Source: an uncultured Lachnospiraceae bacterium (GTDB lineage Bacteria > Bacillota > Clostridia > Lachnospirales > Lachnospiraceae). From it: a stretch of 32,253 bases of DNA. Shown here one piece after another: positions 12,787 through 19,667 of the stretch; positions within the stretch are counted from its first letter, which is position 1; every line of letters starts with the position of its first letter. A model generated the notes under the pieces. The model was not told where the DNA came from and ran no database searches. It saw nothing but the letters and a program-made list of their open reading frames with translations. The stretch spans positions 1-32,253 of the forward strand of contig CANRLR010000027.1 in the NCBI GenBank assembly GCA_947631505.1, given 5' to 3'. The position numbers and the translations under genes are program-made.

Positions 12787-13848
12787 TTAACGAATAAACT
12801 TATCGGCAACATCTGACTCCAGCACGGAATATTTTTCTTCCACACTCTTTTCCTCTGTTTCATCCGACGACAGGCTAATCTGTAATTCATTCACATAATG
12901 ACCTACAAATAATACTCTTTTAATGTATTTCTCACTCATTTCATAGCAGTTTTGATATAATTCATCCAGTGTCATACCATTCTTTTTCGCATATTGTTCC
13001 AGCGAAATATCTTGTACATAAGCGAGCTGTTCATAATCATATACAAAATGAACCGCATAATCTGCTATTTCTTCCTTGTCCATCTCAAATTCACATTGGC
13101 TTGTGATTTTATCAAATAAGGCATCTGTTTTGTCCTTGTATACAATCTGTTTCTTCTCTTTTTCCGCTCTTTTCCGCTGTTTTTTATAAAATTCTTCCAC
13201 AGAATTACAGTCCAGTTCCCTTTGGACAAATTCATCATTTAATTCTGGAATTACATAGTTATTAATAGATTCAATCGTAAATGAAACCGTAACCGTTTTC
13301 CCTGCCATCTCTTTATAGATGCTGTCATCGGGAACTTTCATTTTCCTTTTATACGTTTTTCCTACTGCAAGACCAGTCAAGATTTCCTCAAAAGCTTTAT
13401 CATAATTACCAGAACCAACCTTTATGATCTCCCCTTCCCTTTCCGAGCGGAGTTTCCCCTTATAATATGTTCTATAATTAACACGGGCAAAGTCACCTTT
13501 CCGAACCGTTTTCCGCCCTTTAATCTTTACCAGTTCAGACTGAGATTCCAGCATTTCTTTTACAAACTGTTCTATTTCCTCCTCCGACACACTGACCTTT
13601 AAGTCATCCACCAAAATAAAACATTCTTTCTTTATGTTTTCATATTTCGGATATTTCACCAACGTGCTCTTCGTGACATTAAGAGTTTTTAGATAAGCCT
13701 TTACATCACTATCTATCTCACATATGGTTTCTTCCCTGTTTTCCCTGACAACAGAATTATCCCCCTGCGTACATCCAGTAAATGTACACAGGGAGATAAC
13801 CAAAACAATCGCTGAACAAATTTTTTTACACCACGTTACACTTCTCAT
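12787..13848 (-). CDS. Trigger-factor-like peptidyl-prolyl isomerase lipoprotein
   Basis: A 353-aa exported lipoprotein with a signal peptide and lipobox FTGC (Cys26). Residues about 115-197 resemble the FKBP domain of trigger factor (KGDFARVNYRTYYKGK, then KVPDDSIYKEMAGKTVTVSFTI). Residues about 200-345 resemble the helical C-terminal chaperone domain. Trigger factor is normally cytosolic and ribosome-bound. Here the ribosome-binding domain is replaced by a lipid anchor, so it should act outside the membrane. As last gene of an operon of secreted proteases it is probably their foldase, analogous to PrsA in Bacillus. The ribosome site is weak (it follows the upstream stop by 12 bp). Confidence 0.83.
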   Translation of the reverse strand: MRSVTWCKKICSAIVLVISLCTFTGCTQGDNSVVRENREETICEIDSDVKAYLKTLNVTKSTLVKYPKYENIKKECFILVDDLKVSVSEEEIEQFVKEMLESQSELVKIKGRKTVRKGDFARVNYRTYYKGKLRSEREGEIIKVGSGNYDKAFEEILTGLAVGKTYKRKMKVPDDSIYKEMAGKTVTVSFTIESINNYVIPELNDEFVQRELDCNSVEEFYKKQRKRAEKEKKQIVYKDKTDALFDKITSQCEFEMDKEEIADYAVHFVYDYEQLAYVQDISLEQYAKKNGMTLDELYQNCYEMSEKYIKRVLFVGHYVNELQISLSSDETEEKSVEEKYSVLESDVADKFIR

Positions 13849-13860
13849 CTGTCAACATAC

Positions 13861-14673
13861 CTATTTCTTCTTTACTACTCGTTTTGTCCATGCTCCCCAC
13901 TTTTTCCTCGACTTATTATAAGCTTTTACTTTTACCGTATACTTTTTAGCCACTTTACCCTTTATCTTATAAGAATAACTGACCTTTTTCGTCGTTTTAT
14001 TTAGTACAGTTTTTCCACCACTTTTTGTAATTACAATTTTATACTTGCTGACCGTAGACATTTTCTTCCACTTCACCGTGATTTTCTTTTTTGCAAGTTT
14101 TACACTCTTAAATTTTACCGTTGGCGTTACCGGTGGCTGATAAGGTTTTATAGGTGCCGGCGGCAGCGACTGATTACCTCCCGTCAGCACAGTATAAACC
14201 TTATCCCCAAATTTTTCTGCCAATTTTTTAGCGGTAACCTCGTAATTGTCTTTCATAATTTTGACACTTACCCGGGGTTCTACTGCACCTGATGCCAGCG
14301 TAACCGCCGCTATCCCCCAGGATTGCACTCCCGGGTATTCAGCCGTCGTAATCTCACTCATAACCTGCCGCAGCTCATTCTTTGAATAATCACACGATGC
14401 AAATATAATTTTCATATTATTTGGTATTCCGTCCAAAATTATCTTCCGATTCTCTTTTGTATTTTCTTTTAAATAAACTAGAAATGCGTCTTTCTCTGAT
14501 AAATATTCTAAATGGCAGTAATAATCCGGCGCCGAATGTTCCCACTGACCAAGTATTCCTAAATCCCCGTACTGTGCCGCTTTTGCCGTGTAAACACCAA
14601 TTTGACCATTCTGCAGTAACAGCACAGAAAAAGCAAGCATGATAGCTGCTACTCTTCTTATCTTCTTTTTCAT
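13861..14673 (-). CDS. Secreted protein with a Lys-rich Fn3-like C-terminal domain
   Basis: A 270-aa protein with a Sec signal peptide (cleavage probably near AKAA-Q, about residue 33), a middle domain of about 135 residues that I do not recognise, a proline-rich linker (about 172-184), and a C-terminal ~85-residue beta domain resembling fibronectin type III. The Fn3-like part is extremely rich in lysine, so it is strongly basic and could bind acidic wall polymers. GAGGGGG lies 7 bp before ATG 14673. It sits between the chymotrypsin-like protease and the foldase and may be a protease partner, inhibitor or substrate. This is inference only. Confidence 0.72.
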   Translation of the reverse strand: MKKKIRRVAAIMLAFSVLLLQNGQIGVYTAKAAQYGDLGILGQWEHSAPDYYCHLEYLSEKDAFLVYLKENTKENRKIILDGIPNNMKIIFASCDYSKNELRQVMSEITTAEYPGVQSWGIAAVTLASGAVEPRVSVKIMKDNYEVTAKKLAEKFGDKVYTVLTGGNQSLPPAPIKPYQPPVTPTVKFKSVKLAKKKITVKWKKMSTVSKYKIVITKSGGKTVLNKTTKKVSYSYKIKGKVAKKYTVKVKAYNKSRKKWGAWTKRVVKKK

Positions 14674-14693
14674 CTTAATTCCCCCTCGTTTAA

Positions 14694-15953
14694 TTAAAAC
14701 AATGATAATGTTGAGCTAAATGATGAGCGGATATTGGAGAATTTCGCCCCATATCCAGTGATTGTATTACTAGCTTCTGTTATTCCAACCACCTTCAATG
14801 TAGACGTATTTGGGTCGTAAGCATAATTAATTCCTCCACTATCCCCACTTTCTGACTTGTTCGTATATTCAATATAATCACTAAATGTTTTACCATCACA
14901 AGTAACGGTAGTTGATACACTTACAACTTTTCCACTTGTATGCCCTGTCGTAGAACCAATTTTCTCTATCGCCATTCCAGTATAAATTTGAGGCATAATA
15001 GATGGGCTCAGGCTACTACTCGTAGCTATTCCATACAAATTATTCGAAAGTGTGTACGCCGCTCCGGAAGCGTCCAGTCTCACCACGGAAACATCCACAT
15101 TTCCAGAATATTTTCTTTTTACGACAGGTCCCAACAAACTGCTTCCCAATGAACTATTGGCATAAAAATTATCTCCAACTGCATTTCCATGAGCTGATGT
15201 AATAAACCCGTATTTTGTATTGCCATATGAAGTAACCCATTTTACCCGGCATCCCAAACTATATCTGCTTTTAGTGGTATAAATCGGCTGACCAGCTTTT
15301 AATGCTACGACTTGCTCATTTTTTTTCTCTGTATTAATAAGCCGGATGCATGCCGCATCTGAAATATACTTTTGAAAAGCATTCTCCTTTTCCTCATTCA
15401 ACTGAAAAATCTTCACATCAATACAGTTATCCTTTATATTGACAGCATATGACTGGATTGATTCCAAAAGAACCTTAAAATCTACTTTTGCTTTTTTATA
15501 TTTTTTTGTATACACTTTCGCAATCTGTTTTTCATACTTTTTCAGTTCTTTCAGAGAGTATTCTACTTTTCTTATCTGGATATCCTCTGTCTTCGACACC
15601 TCTTTTATATTCTTGACCGTTTTATCGGCTTTATCCGTCATACTTATAACCGCATCCTGATTCTCATCCAGATAAATTCCGGCAAAACCATCTTTAATTT
15701 TATCCTCCGAAAACTGCTCATGCCCATATTCTTCCGTGAGCCTGTTCGCAACGATAACACCTTTGTTCTTTTTCTTAACCGCTTTCTCTTCTGTCTCCTG
15801 TTTTATACTCTCGTAAATTTCTTTTACTAAAACTCCACCGGTCTCTGTGTCCGTACCCTGTGCCAGTGCAGACGTCTCTCCTCCCATATTTTGGATTAAC
15901 ATAATCCCTAGACATACGACAACGCATAATAAATAGTTTCTGACCTTTCTCAT
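14694..15953 (-). CDS. Secreted chymotrypsin-fold (S1-type) serine protease with pro-region
   Basis: A 419-aa protein with a signal peptide (about residues 1-32), a long charged pro-region (about 35-215) and a catalytic domain from about 220. The triad is visible as His255 (GFITSAHG), Asp287 (GNVDVSVVRLD) and Ser372 (ESGDSGG), with the GDSGG oxyanion signature. The arrangement resembles alpha-lytic-protease-like bacterial enzymes, whose pro-region assists folding and inhibits until cleaved. The start at ATG 15953 has AGGAGG six bases upstream. A longer frame from 15971 has no such site. The gene has its own promoter and is in an operon with a foldase lipoprotein. Confidence 0.87.
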   Translation of the reverse strand: MRKVRNYLLCVVVCLGIMLIQNMGGETSALAQGTDTETGGVLVKEIYESIKQETEEKAVKKKNKGVIVANRLTEEYGHEQFSEDKIKDGFAGIYLDENQDAVISMTDKADKTVKNIKEVSKTEDIQIRKVEYSLKELKKYEKQIAKVYTKKYKKAKVDFKVLLESIQSYAVNIKDNCIDVKIFQLNEEKENAFQKYISDAACIRLINTEKKNEQVVALKAGQPIYTTKSRYSLGCRVKWVTSYGNTKYGFITSAHGNAVGDNFYANSSLGSSLLGPVVKRKYSGNVDVSVVRLDASGAAYTLSNNLYGIATSSSLSPSIMPQIYTGMAIEKIGSTTGHTSGKVVSVSTTVTCDGKTFSDYIEYTNKSESGDSGGINYAYDPNTSTLKVVGITEASNTITGYGAKFSNIRSSFSSTLSLF

Positions 15954-16020
15954 AAATATCCTCCTGTACATAAGATTGTTTTAATATTACTCAAAATTGT
16001 TGTATAATACACTTGTTTTA

Positions 16021-16049
16021 AGTATAGTAATTATCAAATTGTGTGTCAA
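16021..16049 (-). promoter_or_regulatory. Consensus promoter before the S1-type protease
   Basis: On the minus strand, TTGACA (16044-16049), a 17-bp spacer and TATACT (16021-16026). It starts transcription about 65 bp before the protease ATG, inside the secreted-protein operon, so the last three genes can be expressed separately. The design copies that of the promoter in front of the subtilisin gene. Confidence 0.82.
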
Positions 16050-16060
16050 TACCAGTAAAA

Positions 16061-16086
16061 TTCACTTTTTAGTGAAGTTTAGTTCA
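16061..16086. promoter_or_regulatory. Phased TTCAC/GTGAA site upstream of the S1-protease promoter
   Basis: Three half-sites, TTCAC (16061), GTGAA (16072) and TTCA (16083), start exactly 11 bp apart. The first lies 11 bp beyond the -35 box. The inner pair forms a palindrome TTCACT-N4-AGTGAA. The same array occurs at 19679-19705 at the same distance from the other promoter of this locus. It is probably an activator site, with an unknown regulator. Confidence 0.6.
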
Positions 16087-16115
16087 GTATGAATAACTCT
16101 TTCCTTTTCTTGCCC

Positions 16116-16418
16116 TTATACTGATAAGTTTTTATTATTGTTTTTACCGGCCAATTTAGCTGGAATCACTAGTTTTTTCTGTTCGTTCTCTATCTTTACA
16201 ATATTCACATATTTCTTGGAACTGTTCAAAAACTCATAGGTGTATTTTGTCCCATTTACTGTAACAGTTACTGGTTCTTTTTTGTTTTTGTGCTGTTCCA
16301 GAGCACTATAATTGACTTTTTTCCCGACTGGTGCAGCCAGCACCTTTTCGTTTTCTGCAGATAACAAGGTAACACATACTCCCAGTAGCAGAACTACGCT
16401 CATTACTAGCTTTTTCAT
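16116..16418 (-). CDS. Truncated duplicate of the LRR surface protein
   Basis: A 100-aa product. Its signal peptide and first ~60 residues are almost identical to those of the adjacent leucine-rich protein (MKKLVMSVVLLLGVC, EKVLAAPVGKKVNYSA, HKNKKEPVTVTVNGTK). A diverged stretch follows, then IPAKLAGK, after which it stops where the other protein continues into its repeats. The ribosome site (GGGGGGA) and both candidate ATGs are retained. I read it as a tandem duplicate that has lost the LRR region. It may still be made as a short secreted peptide. The start could also be ATG 16424. Confidence 0.6.
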   Translation of the reverse strand: MKKLVMSVVLLLGVCVTLLSAENEKVLAAPVGKKVNYSALEQHKNKKEPVTVTVNGTKYTYEFLNSSKKYVNIVKIENEQKKLVIPAKLAGKNNNKNLSV

Positions 16419-16436
16419 GTTCATTTCCCCCCTAAT
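16245..16436. repeat. 192-bp direct repeat, copy 1
   Basis: This segment matches 17341-17532 without gaps at a constant offset of 1096 bp, with only about a dozen mismatches. It covers the ribosome site, signal peptide and N-terminal coding region shared by the truncated and full-length LRR genes. Confidence 0.9.
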
Positions 16437-16473
16437 GTTTCCCATTCCTGCGTGTAACAATGCCGTTTTCAGA

Positions 16474-17514
16474 CTACTTTTTCACAATCTTAACTTTATG
16501 CATATCCGCCTCGGACGTACTAAAGTAATAGTTTTTCTCCCCACTGTAACGGTCTTTTCTAGAATCACTTACCGTTCCGTACTTTGCATTTTTTAACACA
16601 GGGATTGCCTTTGAGCCCTTCGGTACAATAAATTTCTTGAACTGGATATAGTAATAGGACCGGTCTTTTGGTTTCTTAAATCCGGTCAGTTTTGTCTGCC
16701 TTCCCAGCAGCTGTACCGTTCCTGCATTCGCATTTACTTTAGACGAAAAGGTCTTCACCTGTTTTCCCACAATTATCTTTGCGTTTGGACAATCAGTAAA
16801 CCAGTCTTCTCCTAAAGAGACCTTTTTTTGCCGACTCGAAAAGGTCACCTTTTTCATCCGCTTATTGTCGGCAAACGCAAAACGTCCCACCTGTTTTTTC
16901 ATGTTTTTCATATAAGGCAGTTTTACCCCTCTCAAACTACTGTATTCAAAAGCACTTTCTCCTATTTTCCCGGTAAATTCTCCTTTCGGAAAAGATACTT
17001 TTTCCAGTTTTCTGCACCCCCAGAATGCACTCTCACCTATTTTTACACTTAGATTTTGAAATTTTATTTCTTTTATCGGTGCACGATAAAAAGCAGTAAT
17101 ACCAATTTTTTTAACTGATTTCGGAATTGTAACAGATGTTAATTTGTGTAGTCCACCAAACGCACTCTCACCTATTTCCTGTATTCCATTTTTAATTACC
17201 ACTTTTCGGATTGTAGGTACAAATATCCTCTCAATCTTATAAACCCGTTTCCCGTTTAATTTTGCCGGAACCACCAATTTTTCCTTGCTGCATTGAACAT
17301 CTATAATTTCTATCCCTTTCCCATATGGCTGATACGTGAATTTTGTCCCATTTACTGTAACAGTTACCGGTTCTTTTTTGTTTTTGTGCTGTTCCGGAGC
17401 ACTATAATTGACTTTTTTCCCGACTGGTGCAGCCAGCACCTTTTCGTTTTCTGCAGTTAACAGAATAAAACATACTCCCAGTAGCAGAACTACGCTCATT
17501 ACTAACTTTTTCAT
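16474..17514 (-). CDS. BspA-like leucine-rich repeat secreted protein
   Basis: A protein of about 346 aa with a signal peptide (MKKLVMSVVLLLGVCF..., probable cleavage after KVLA), a short N-terminal domain, then about five LRR_5-type repeats (IGESAFGGLHKLTSVTIP, IGESAFWGCRKLEKVSFP and similar). The C-terminal segment of about 80 residues has no repeats and is basic. BspA-type LRR proteins are surface or secreted adhesion modules, and no wall anchor is visible here. Two ATGs follow the GGGGGA ribosome site. The second (17514) has the better spacing. The stop of the subtilisin gene lies just upstream, so the two are co-transcribed. Confidence 0.85.
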   Translation of the reverse strand: MKKLVMSVVLLLGVCFILLTAENEKVLAAPVGKKVNYSAPEQHKNKKEPVTVTVNGTKFTYQPYGKGIEIIDVQCSKEKLVVPAKLNGKRVYKIERIFVPTIRKVVIKNGIQEIGESAFGGLHKLTSVTIPKSVKKIGITAFYRAPIKEIKFQNLSVKIGESAFWGCRKLEKVSFPKGEFTGKIGESAFEYSSLRGVKLPYMKNMKKQVGRFAFADNKRMKKVTFSSRQKKVSLGEDWFTDCPNAKIIVGKQVKTFSSKVNANAGTVQLLGRQTKLTGFKKPKDRSYYYIQFKKFIVPKGSKAIPVLKNAKYGTVSDSRKDRYSGEKNYYFSTSEADMHKVKIVKK

Positions 17515-17532
17515 GTTCATTTTCCCCCTAAT
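17341..17532. repeat. 192-bp direct repeat, copy 2
   Basis: The full-length LRR gene copy of the repeat described at 16245-16436. It includes the TAG stop of the subtilisin gene and the overlapping ribosome site at its right end. Confidence 0.9.
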
Positions 17533-19570
17533 ACGTTATAGAATATTTTTTTATTTGATTTGCCATTCCACGATTTCCTGCCTGATTCATATACTCCCAG
17601 AAGTTATATAGCTTAAATTTCTTTTCATTATATAGGCTGCAATAAAAATCACCTGACTGACCCTGTTCGCCTTTCACATAATGGGCGATAATATTCTTTG
17701 TCACTTCTTTCGCCACTGTAAAACGGAGATCAAGTGCATTCGAATCATCTGCGTAATTATTTCCATGTTTCTTTTTATCATGAAAAAATCTCTGCCATTT
17801 ATATCCACTTTCTTTGTTTGGATCTTTCCAATACCCATATATGCAATGTGAATACACATCCGTAGCCGAATGAATCGCAACTCCCCAAGCAAATGCACCC
17901 TTTTGGGCATTGTTCGTACAGGATTGGTTCGACCAGCCGATTCGTTTATAAAAAGTATCAGCAGTCGGAATATAAGGTAACACGATACTTCCTATATAGT
18001 CTTCCTTTCCCCGTCTGATTTTCTCCGCCTCTTTGGTTAAATCAATATAAGAAAGAATATAGTTATTGTTTGCTTTCTTTGTATCATATTTAAAGTAACC
18101 ATGCATATACGGATATGCCCCCATTCCGGTTACAGTACTTTCTGATTTGTCCGGATATATCGCCCCTCTCTTCATGGCACTAATGGTTGCTGCCGCTATC
18201 CCTTTTCCACTTATTCCAACAGATACGCACGTTTTATGGTCTGCTAATTCCCATGAACCATTTACATAATCTACGTCGGTAAACTGTTCGACCGGAGAAA
18301 GATTCTCCCCCACTGCTTCCTTATTCTCCTCTACTGTATTTGCCGGCTCATAATTCTCAGCAAATTCATCATATACCTTGACTGCCTGCTCATAATCTAC
18401 CAGACCGTTTCCATACTCGCTAGTATCTCCATACTGGTTGGCACTGGCATTCATAAGCTGACGGATAAAATCTGCTGAAACCATCCGGTCTTTTTCCCAC
18501 AGTTTTGCTGCCACTCCTACCACATGAGGTACTGCCATACTGGTACCGTTGCAGATAACGGTCCCGTCAAAGGAACCCGTGGCACAGATTTGTTCTGCCG
18601 GTGCTACTAATTCGATTTCTTCCCCTTTCGCACTATAATCACACACCTCGCCGGAGGTATCGGTTCCCCCTACGGCTATCACTTCTTCCATTGCTGCCGG
18701 ATATTCCACTTTTCCTTGGTTTCCTGCCGCTGCCACAATAAGGATACCTTTATTATATGCTTCTTTTATTGCCAGTTCCAGTGCTTCGGAATACTGCGTT
18801 GTTCCAAAACTGATACTGATAATATCCACGTTCTTCTCAATTGCCCAATATACAGCCTCTATAATGCGGCTGACCGGTGCCGATTTTTCCGCATCCAGTA
18901 CTCTTGCCGAATACAACTCAATATTTGGATCAATACCGGTAATTCCCTCTTTGTTATCCTGTGCTGCCAGTACTCCGGCAATACTGGTACCATGACCGCT
19001 GGTATCCCAGAACAGAGGAAGCACCTCTTCCTCCCCCGGTATTAAATTAATGGATTCTTTTACTTCAATATCATTGAACAAATCGACTCCTGAATCCAAA
19101 ATAGCTACTTTGACCTTGTTTTTTCCGTTTCCTTTCTTTTTCTGCTTTTTGGTATGTATTGCCTGTAAATTCCACTCCCTGTTTTTATCTGCTTTCCGAG
19201 ACCTGATTTTTTCCACCTTTTTATCCGTGCAACAAATAGAAGAGCCTTTTACCACAACATCCGGTTCCACTAACTCTACAGCATCCTTCTTTTCTAATTT
19301 CTGTGCCTCAGTCTCTGTCAATTCAAGGGTAGTGAAATTTTCTTCCTGCATTCTGTCACTGCTGAGATCGGAAATCGTATTCACTTTTTCATATTGACTG
19401 CTCAGTTTTTTTCTTGTGCTTTCATCCTCGGTATGGATGATGTAAGTCCGTTTTGTATCTTGAGCAGTCTTTGCTCCGGCTCGTTCCGTTTCGTGCATTC
19501 CTGAACTGAAAATAATCGCGGTACCGAACAAAAATGCCTGCAGTTTTTTTACTAATTCTCTCTTTTTCAC
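17528..19570 (-). CDS. Subtilisin (S8) protease with pro-peptide and a Zn-PLC-like C-terminal domain
   Basis: A 680-aa secreted protease. It has a signal peptide (about 1-34), an I9-type inhibitory pro-peptide (about 40-108), a long basic linker, and a subtilisin domain (about 145-400) with Asp159 (AILDSGVD), His193 (SGHGTSIAGV), oxyanion Asn284 (AAAGNQ) and Ser344 (NGTSMAVPH). The last ~230 residues contain His567-x3-Asp571-x3-His575 (AIHSATDVYSH). That pattern is seen in zinc-dependent phospholipase C and related metal-binding folds, and it is unusual on a subtilisin. The start GTG 19570 follows AAAGGGG by 5 bp. The longer frame begins with a TTG inside the ribosome site. It is first gene of the secreted operon. 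Confidence 0.88.
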   Translation of the reverse strand: MKKRELVKKLQAFLFGTAIIFSSGMHETERAGAKTAQDTKRTYIIHTEDESTRKKLSSQYEKVNTISDLSSDRMQEENFTTLELTETEAQKLEKKDAVELVEPDVVVKGSSICCTDKKVEKIRSRKADKNREWNLQAIHTKKQKKKGNGKNKVKVAILDSGVDLFNDIEVKESINLIPGEEEVLPLFWDTSGHGTSIAGVLAAQDNKEGITGIDPNIELYSARVLDAEKSAPVSRIIEAVYWAIEKNVDIISISFGTTQYSEALELAIKEAYNKGILIVAAAGNQGKVEYPAAMEEVIAVGGTDTSGEVCDYSAKGEEIELVAPAEQICATGSFDGTVICNGTSMAVPHVVGVAAKLWEKDRMVSADFIRQLMNASANQYGDTSEYGNGLVDYEQAVKVYDEFAENYEPANTVEENKEAVGENLSPVEQFTDVDYVNGSWELADHKTCVSVGISGKGIAAATISAMKRGAIYPDKSESTVTGMGAYPYMHGYFKYDTKKANNNYILSYIDLTKEAEKIRRGKEDYIGSIVLPYIPTADTFYKRIGWSNQSCTNNAQKGAFAWGVAIHSATDVYSHCIYGYWKDPNKESGYKWQRFFHDKKKHGNNYADDSNALDLRFTVAKEVTKNIIAHYVKGEQGQSGDFYCSLYNEKKFKLYNFWEYMNQAGNRGMANQIKKYSITY

Positions 19571-19638
19571 AAAAACCCCTTTCAAATTAACAATATTGCT
19601 TCTCCCATCTATAAAAGACCCTCAAATTATTAATATCA

Positions 19639-19667
19639 AATATAGCAATTACGGCTTAGCATGTCAA
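19639..19667 (-). promoter_or_regulatory. Consensus promoter before the subtilisin gene
   Basis: On the minus strand, TTGACA (19662-19667), a 17-bp spacer and TATATT (19639-19644). It lies 69 bp before the GTG start and drives the secreted-protein operon. Confidence 0.82.

Follow-up and report, generated by a model that had tools for sequence, protein, structure and literature searches.

Phospholipases C of the PC-PLC family (PF00882), such as the Bacillus cereus PLC (1ah7), Listeria PlcB, and Clostridium perfringens alpha-toxin, use the ligand set Trp1-His-Asp-His-HxxxD-His-His-Glu. In the Listeria PC-PLC, the Trp at the N-terminus coordinates a metal through its main chain, every substitution of this Trp except Phe lowers activity, and a single extra residue ahead of it abolishes activity (PMC10576769). 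The Trp is freed in trans by Mpl, a separate metalloprotease that cuts off a 26-residue propeptide (PMC10576769). Here, we describe a gene that we call S8-PLC in a window of 32,253 nucleotides (the whole stretch of DNA analysed, contig C27 of a 2.74-Mb uncultured Lachnospiraceae genome in 49 contigs). The gene (17528..19585, minus strand; 685 amino acids, aa, from TTG) encodes a pro-subtilisin, a linker, and a phospholipase-C-like domain. We read its product as a self-activating phospholipase-like zymogen with the subtilisin as its propeptide and an adjacent leucine-rich repeat (LRR) protein as its co-secreted partner, a reading to which we give modestly more credence than doubt.

The N-terminal part is certainly a subtilisin, by sequence and by fold. 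The protein matched PF00082 (E 5.4e-45), and the pro-domain plus catalytic domain occupy residues 44-407 (18365..19456, minus strand); the nine best VIA-align rows run from 42-44 to 403-407. Asp164, His198, Asn289, and Ser349 were retained in all 16 rows of the S8 alignment (A3), and a fold search with the full-length model gave subtilisin-type proteases only, among the matches listed. The Asp-His-Ser triad, the oxyanion Asn, and the subtilisin fold are thus those of S8A. Subtilisin E and Savinase share the pro-domain and triad, whereas here the subtilisin is fused to a phospholipase-like domain. The first-pass annotation of this DNA had recognised an S8 subtilisin with its pro-peptide, and both stand, but it overlooked the C-terminal 240 residues that form the PC-PLC-like domain. 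Translation likely starts at the GTG at 19570 rather than at the TTG at 19585, judging by the AAAGGGG ribosome-binding-like stretch that precedes the GTG. A promoter-like site, TTGACA-17-TATATT (19639..19667, minus strand), matching at 11/12 positions, lies 5' of the gene.

The C-terminal domain (residues 445-685; 17531..18253, minus strand) carries Trp445, His450, Asp479, His495, His572-x3-Asp576-x3-His580, and His602. Residues 468-590 gave the second, weak Pfam match of the protein, to PF00882 (zinc-dependent phospholipase C; E 9.5e-4), with 21.9 bits against a curated cut-off of 26.8. When 18 such domains from this genome and its relatives were taken together, 15 matched the family at E<=0.1 (best 7.8e-8), and some S8-PLC frames exceeded the cut-off (for example 27.2 bits on contig C6 of this genome and 33.0 on G005:C34). 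The domains of the 17 relatives were 24-68% identical to that of the window. Invariant across the 18 were, among others, Val, Gly, Trp, His, Asp, Pro, His-Gly, Asn-Tyr, HxxxDxxxH, His, and Arg.

We extended the comparison to 147 loci, which yielded 114 six-frame stretches with a match and 71 once contained ones were removed (near-identical ones stay). Six of the 71 were dropped, five lacking the Trp region (L105, L107, L114, L119, L142) and one beginning two residues before the Trp (L101). In the 65 frames used, Trp, His450, Asp479, and His495 were always kept, as was HxxxDxxxH in all 63 frames having letters there; His602 was kept in 52/63. The ligand-type pattern Trp-His-Asp-His-HxxxD-His-His resembles the PC-PLC set. 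A clear counterpart of its Glu is absent, with Asp613 as a candidate, and the ligand spacing and loops deviate from those of PC-PLCs. In a model of the homologue at L076, the C-domain has the helical PC-PLC fold, and superposes on solved PC-PLCs such that residue 1 of these coincides with the invariant Trp. Foldseek with this domain model returned PC-PLC rows, although weak ones; the profile of the C-domain (A1) found no solved structure at E<=1 in a sequence search, and an NCBIfam scan of the domain gave no relevant match. Altogether, a PC-PLC-like fold with ligand-type conservation appears well supported, by way of the homologue's model.

Weak family scores and the replacement of His602 in 11/63 frames would also suit a PLC fold that has lost its activity, or serves for binding only, and directs the protease to its target. 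We hold this to be rather unlikely, since the seven putative ligands (Trp, His450, Asp479, His495, His572, Asp576, and His580) stay invariant, where letters exist, at identities to the window's domain as low as those given above.

Trp445 is internal, with the whole subtilisin N-terminal to it. If the Listeria rule is valid here, the C-domain would therefore be inactive until the chain is cut between residues 444 and 445. We predict, from motif conservation, that self-cleavage occurs after Val441-Asn-Gly-Ser444 (18254..18265, minus strand), directly before Trp445. Across the 65 frames the motif reads [V/I/L]-x-[G/A]-x-W, with the Trp in 65/65. At P4 we found Val in 55 frames, Ile in 7, Leu in 1, and Ala in 2 (Val/Ile/Leu in 63/65), and at P2 Gly in 57 and Ala in 8. 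These two are the best conserved among the 25 positions preceding the Trp (3.7 bits for P2, 3.5 for P4, and 2.4 for the next position, in a set thinned to 54 sequences), while P1 and P3 are variable.

A similar motif is described for the subtilisin PfSUB1, with the consensus Ile/Leu/Val/Thr-x-Gly/Ala-Paa(not Leu)|x; the restriction at P2 is attributed to Lys465, where most bacterial subtilisins have Gly (PMC3378952). The S8-PLC motif before the Trp agrees with the published PfSUB1 site. In a pairwise alignment, Lys234 of the window protein (codon at 18884..18886, minus strand) falls on a Gly of Savinase. We take this Gly to be number 100 and the position to be equivalent to Lys465 of PfSUB1, limiting the S2 pocket. 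Counted by pairwise alignment (a regular-expression version was too patchy), position 100 in 58 S8-PLC frames was Asn in 48, Lys in 7, Ser in 2, Leu in 1, and Gly in none; 8 further frames were gapped. Thus, 55/58 S8-PLC domains have Asn or Lys there. Ten S8 frames without an A1 match had Gly in five, Asn in three, Arg in one, and a gap in one. Two of the three Asn frames (L020 and L004) hold HxxxDxxxH and look, by sequence, like divergent members of the S8-PLC family; in the third (L114), a PLC-like piece sits in another frame. S8-PLC thus resembles PfSUB1 in its putative specificity, by the motif at the site and by a residue other than Gly where Savinase has Gly100.

Within the S8-PLC family, no covariation was visible between P2 (Gly or Ala) and position 100; the two features are therefore at best one shared state and no case of repeated co-evolution. 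P1 is Leu in three frames, contrary to the PfSUB1 rule. The linker between the Asp of the subtilisin C-terminal GLxD and the Trp measures 39-92 residues (61 frames), which should be long enough for cutting in cis. Self-cleavage before Trp445 is specifically predicted, on lines of evidence that converge but are indirect.

The conservation of Val and Gly could also be structural. The protein would then be a bifunctional enzyme whose domains act independently and without self-cleavage, V-x-G-x-W being a hinge packed on the C-domain; given that the ligand spacing is unlike that of PC-PLC, a free Trp N-terminus might be unnecessary, and cleavage itself is our deduction. However, conserved P4, P2, and P1' positions alternate with much freer P1 and P3, the pattern of a protease substrate bound in extended form. 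In addition, confidence in the homologue's model is low ahead of the Trp, and the Trp superposes on residue 1 of PC-PLC. We consider such an uncut enzyme unlikely. The rival readings discussed here overlap, and the probabilities behind our wording do not sum to one.

The cut before the Trp might alternatively be made in trans by another secreted protease, either a paralogous S8-PLC or the S1 protease encoded further downstream in the window. Many genomes carry several S8-PLC paralogues, and Mpl is a published precedent for maturation in trans (PMC10576769). Against this, the S1 protease has a match in only 1/38 other genus genomes (G020; partial, at 30%, in a genome without an S8 match), yet the site is conserved. 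Besides, the subtilisin Ser lies on the same chain in 63/65 Trp-reaching frames, the other two (L084 and L116) starting after it. Activation in trans therefore strikes us as improbable.

In the self-activation that we favour, a subtilisin with its own pro-domain would cap the N-terminus of a zinc phospholipase-C-like domain in the secreted zymogen. After export, the subtilisin would fold on its own pro-domain and then cleave the linker at [V/I/L]-x-[G/A]-x|W. Trp445 would become the new N-terminus, completing the metal site and switching on the C-terminal hydrolase, whose likely substrate would be phospholipid. The LRR protein of the adjacent gene would be co-secreted, most likely as a targeting or binding subunit. 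Residues ahead of the Trp would block activity as published for the Listeria enzyme (PMC10576769), with a whole subtilisin in place of the short peptide of known PC-PLCs. The role of Mpl in freeing the Trp (PMC10576769) would fall to an S8 protease carried on the same chain. If true, this one-chain design would be a new way of building an enzyme gated by a protease, and it would cleanly test whether the PC-PLC Trp must be N-terminal. Searching the open-access literature by title and abstract start, we found, among the papers listed, neither an S8-PLC fusion nor a pair of BspA/LRR protein and subtilisin in Lachnospiraceae.

The LRR partner (16474..17520, minus strand) starts 7 nt past the S8-PLC stop. 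It is a secreted BspA-type protein, as first annotated, matching LRR_5 (PF13306) with E 2.1e-27 and 96 bits, above the cut-off of 27.7. For the pairing we used the window and 40 loci, picked by S8 or C-domain matches and not by LRR (L066, picked by a trigger-factor match, has no C-domain). They hold 45 open reading frames (ORFs) with a C-domain, one of them an 81-aa fragment. Six of the 45 were dropped because no complete gene followed on the same strand: L057 and L177 lie at contig ends, the downstream frame is open in L159, L165, and L171, and in L063 an opposite-strand gene comes first, with two LRR-like genes beyond. LRR_5 (E<=0.01) was found in 30/39 downstream genes. Ten of the 39 were scanned singly; seven of these lacked LRR_5, and LRR_4 was matched by five of the seven, which brings the genes with an LRR family to 35/39. 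The exceptions are a 168-aa protein without family match after the 81-aa fragment, a protein with sub-threshold LRR and domain-of-unknown-function matches only, and two that, judging by the family counts, are apparently a GH25/SH3 protein and an AAA ATPase. For the control, we looked upstream of the 44 larger ORFs and scanned 30 same-strand neighbours (5 were on the opposite strand and 9 had no gene in the sequence read). LRR_5 occurred in 1/30, among the first 25 of 39 families listed, and two of the 30 (L049, L174) resemble N-terminal pieces of a frame-broken S8 gene. There is strong evidence that the S8 and LRR genes are a conserved secreted pair in many genomes. The partner shares LRR_5 or LRR_4 repeats and a hydrophobic N-terminus with BspA-type and internalin-like LRR proteins, but is genetically tied to an S8-PLC enzyme.

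Next to the LRR gene, 16116..16460 (minus strand; 114 aa) had been annotated as a truncated LRR copy. DNA alignment showed that the 5' end of the LRR gene has been duplicated here in tandem, the product being 73% identical to LRR residues 1-94. No LRR family matched it, and we therefore regard it as a remnant. The duplication (16116-17520) makes LRR partner genes seem prone to recombine; among the other LRR matches of this genome, the partner on contig C6 is 61% identical and the rest are far more diverged.

At E<=1e-5 and counting this genome, the C-domain was present in 25/39 genus genomes (1-8 matches per genome), in 16/397 genomes of the family sample (13 of 334 genera), and in 3/295 of the order sample (2 of 129 genera). 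Fourteen named loci bear titles such as Lachnospiraceae, Eubacteriaceae, Eubacterium, Roseburia, Lachnoclostridium, Clostridia, and Tenericutes, 10/14 being metagenome-assembled genomes, and the carriers may be of gut origin. In this genome we counted five C-domain matches and, in addition, a diverged S8 frame (C4:107850) with GSW and HxxxDxxxH motifs, and in many genomes diverged S8-PLC/LRR pairs lie side by side. Four of its contigs (C9, C25, C17, C42) start within S8-PLC copies, which suggests that near-identical repeats collapsed in assembly. We further propose, with a confidence that falls a little short of even, that Lachnospiraceae and their kin hold a family of self-uncapping phospholipases in which a subtilisin replaced the propeptide, with a narrowed S2 pocket tuned to [V/I/L]-x-[G/A]-x|W, and whose copies multiplied with LRR partners as exchangeable targeting modules. 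If true, Lachnospiraceae-type bacteria would secrete a set of lipase-like enzymes, encoded in several copies and with LRR partners that vary, which may bear on their handling of phospholipids from the host, the diet, or other microbes.

Some side observations concern these loci. The second S8-PLC copy on contig C4 (L049, 12211-14368) runs over two overlapping frames and is apparently frameshifted. A separate short PF00882 protein of a different branch, with no hydrophobic N-terminus, was seen at L148, L149, L152, L155, L157, and other places; frames of 270-330 aa occur in 21/39 genus genomes, and the five examined have 271-279 aa. AgrB (PF04647) was found in 2/30 upstream genes, judging by position probably those of L059 (13452-16283) and L176 (7310-7750 and the next two genes); beyond each lie two genes, one histidine-kinase-like and one regulator-like. 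By sequence likeness, L060 (10014-12837) has three genes of this kind further upstream. A quorum-sensing link of these clusters near S8-PLC is possible. In L058, L061, and L067 (also L057, L059, L172, and L174), an AMP-ligase gene, a carrier-protein gene, and a second short AMP-binding-like gene, presumably PaaK-like, or some of these, stand directly upstream of S8-PLC. Pfam matches of the same region in L076 (= L058) were AMP-binding 2.3e-43, PP-binding 4.2e-7, and AMP-binding 5.1e-7 (just below the cut-off), and the carrier protein of L077 matched at 2e-12.

Beyond the remnant, the window encodes three more exported proteins on the minus strand. The first (14694..15971) is an S1E-type protease with a long pro-region; it has no convincing Pfam family and matches solved S1E proteases (2sfa, E 8.9e-5). 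Its protease domain is of chymotrypsin type with the triad, as in S1E (motifs TSAHG 258, NVD 291, and SGDSGG 375). The annotated S1 protease is thereby confirmed, while its pro-region resembles that of alpha-lytic protease weakly (2pro, E 0.081). The second (13861..14673) is a Lys-rich protein whose annotation as Fn3-like rests on a weak PF00041 match (E 0.0012, below the cut-off). The third (12787..13848) matched Trigger_C at 1.4e-7, above the cut-off, and TIGR00115 below it (E 5.1e-34; 117.8 bits against 180.2), from profile position 113 on; the N-domain family was absent among its Pfam matches, and it has a lipobox-like Cys. For these reasons the name trigger-factor-like lipoprotein, of trigger-factor/FKBP-like type, is retained. 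A 57-nt hairpin of 22 pairs (13750-13806; -30.7 kcal/mol, z -7.97) lies in the 5' coding part of its gene.

The first-pass annotation had joined all six genes into one functional unit with shared promoters, in which the foldase would mature two zymogens and the LRR and Fn3 proteins would tether them. The six adjacent minus-strand ORFs (12787-19585) are there, a simple hydropathy score finds the N-terminus of each hydrophobic, and the gaps between these same-strand secreted genes are mostly small. However, one of the six is a remnant, and the 144-bp gap before the S1 gene holds its own promoter-like site (TTGACA-17-TATACT, 16021..16049, minus strand; 11/12 matches) and an AT-rich hairpin (within 16050-16090, z -2.67), besides the 11/12 site before S8. 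The promoter scan (25 sites against a shuffle mean of 19.8, sd 4.4) is suggestive only; this site and hairpin suggest, by sequence, that S8-LRR and S1-Fn3-TF are two units. The gene-order comparison proposed with that annotation retrieved the S8-LRR pair; next to S8, the ORFs of one set of 20 loci and of another of 14 included no S1, Fn3-like, or trigger-factor-like match, and the six-gene operon was rejected on synteny. Elsewhere, Fn3-like matches occurred in 4/38 other genus genomes, all partial. The trigger-factor-like protein had some match in 40/41 genomes, at 18-29% identity apart from the window's own and mostly to frames of trigger-factor length; a short G013 contig held fragments that were 36-37% identical. 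Two more matches lie in this genome, a 439-aa frame on C7, probably the trigger factor itself, and a 413-aa frame on C1. Among the matches in other genomes, the neighbourhood examined was that of L066, which has no S8. The S1 protease has a long, weakly alpha-lytic-like pro-region of its own, and thus no additional foldase need be invoked for it. We judge the six-gene unit with its foldase cascade highly improbable; most simply, the S8-PLC and LRR genes are read as a two-gene unit adjoining an unrelated secreted-protease unit.

The genes around are housekeeping or chemotaxis-related, with chorismate synthase and CheX-like and CheY-like genes on one flank, and phosphoglycerate mutase, homoserine dehydrogenase, CheW, a release factor, and SecA on the other. 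A scan of the window for RNA elements gave no tRNA and no Rfam family at gathering score. At one end, a LytTR regulator and a GHKL kinase (194-2244) are followed by a 120-aa ORF (2245-2607) that is about 30% identical to ORFs near the AgrB-type clusters of L059 and L060.

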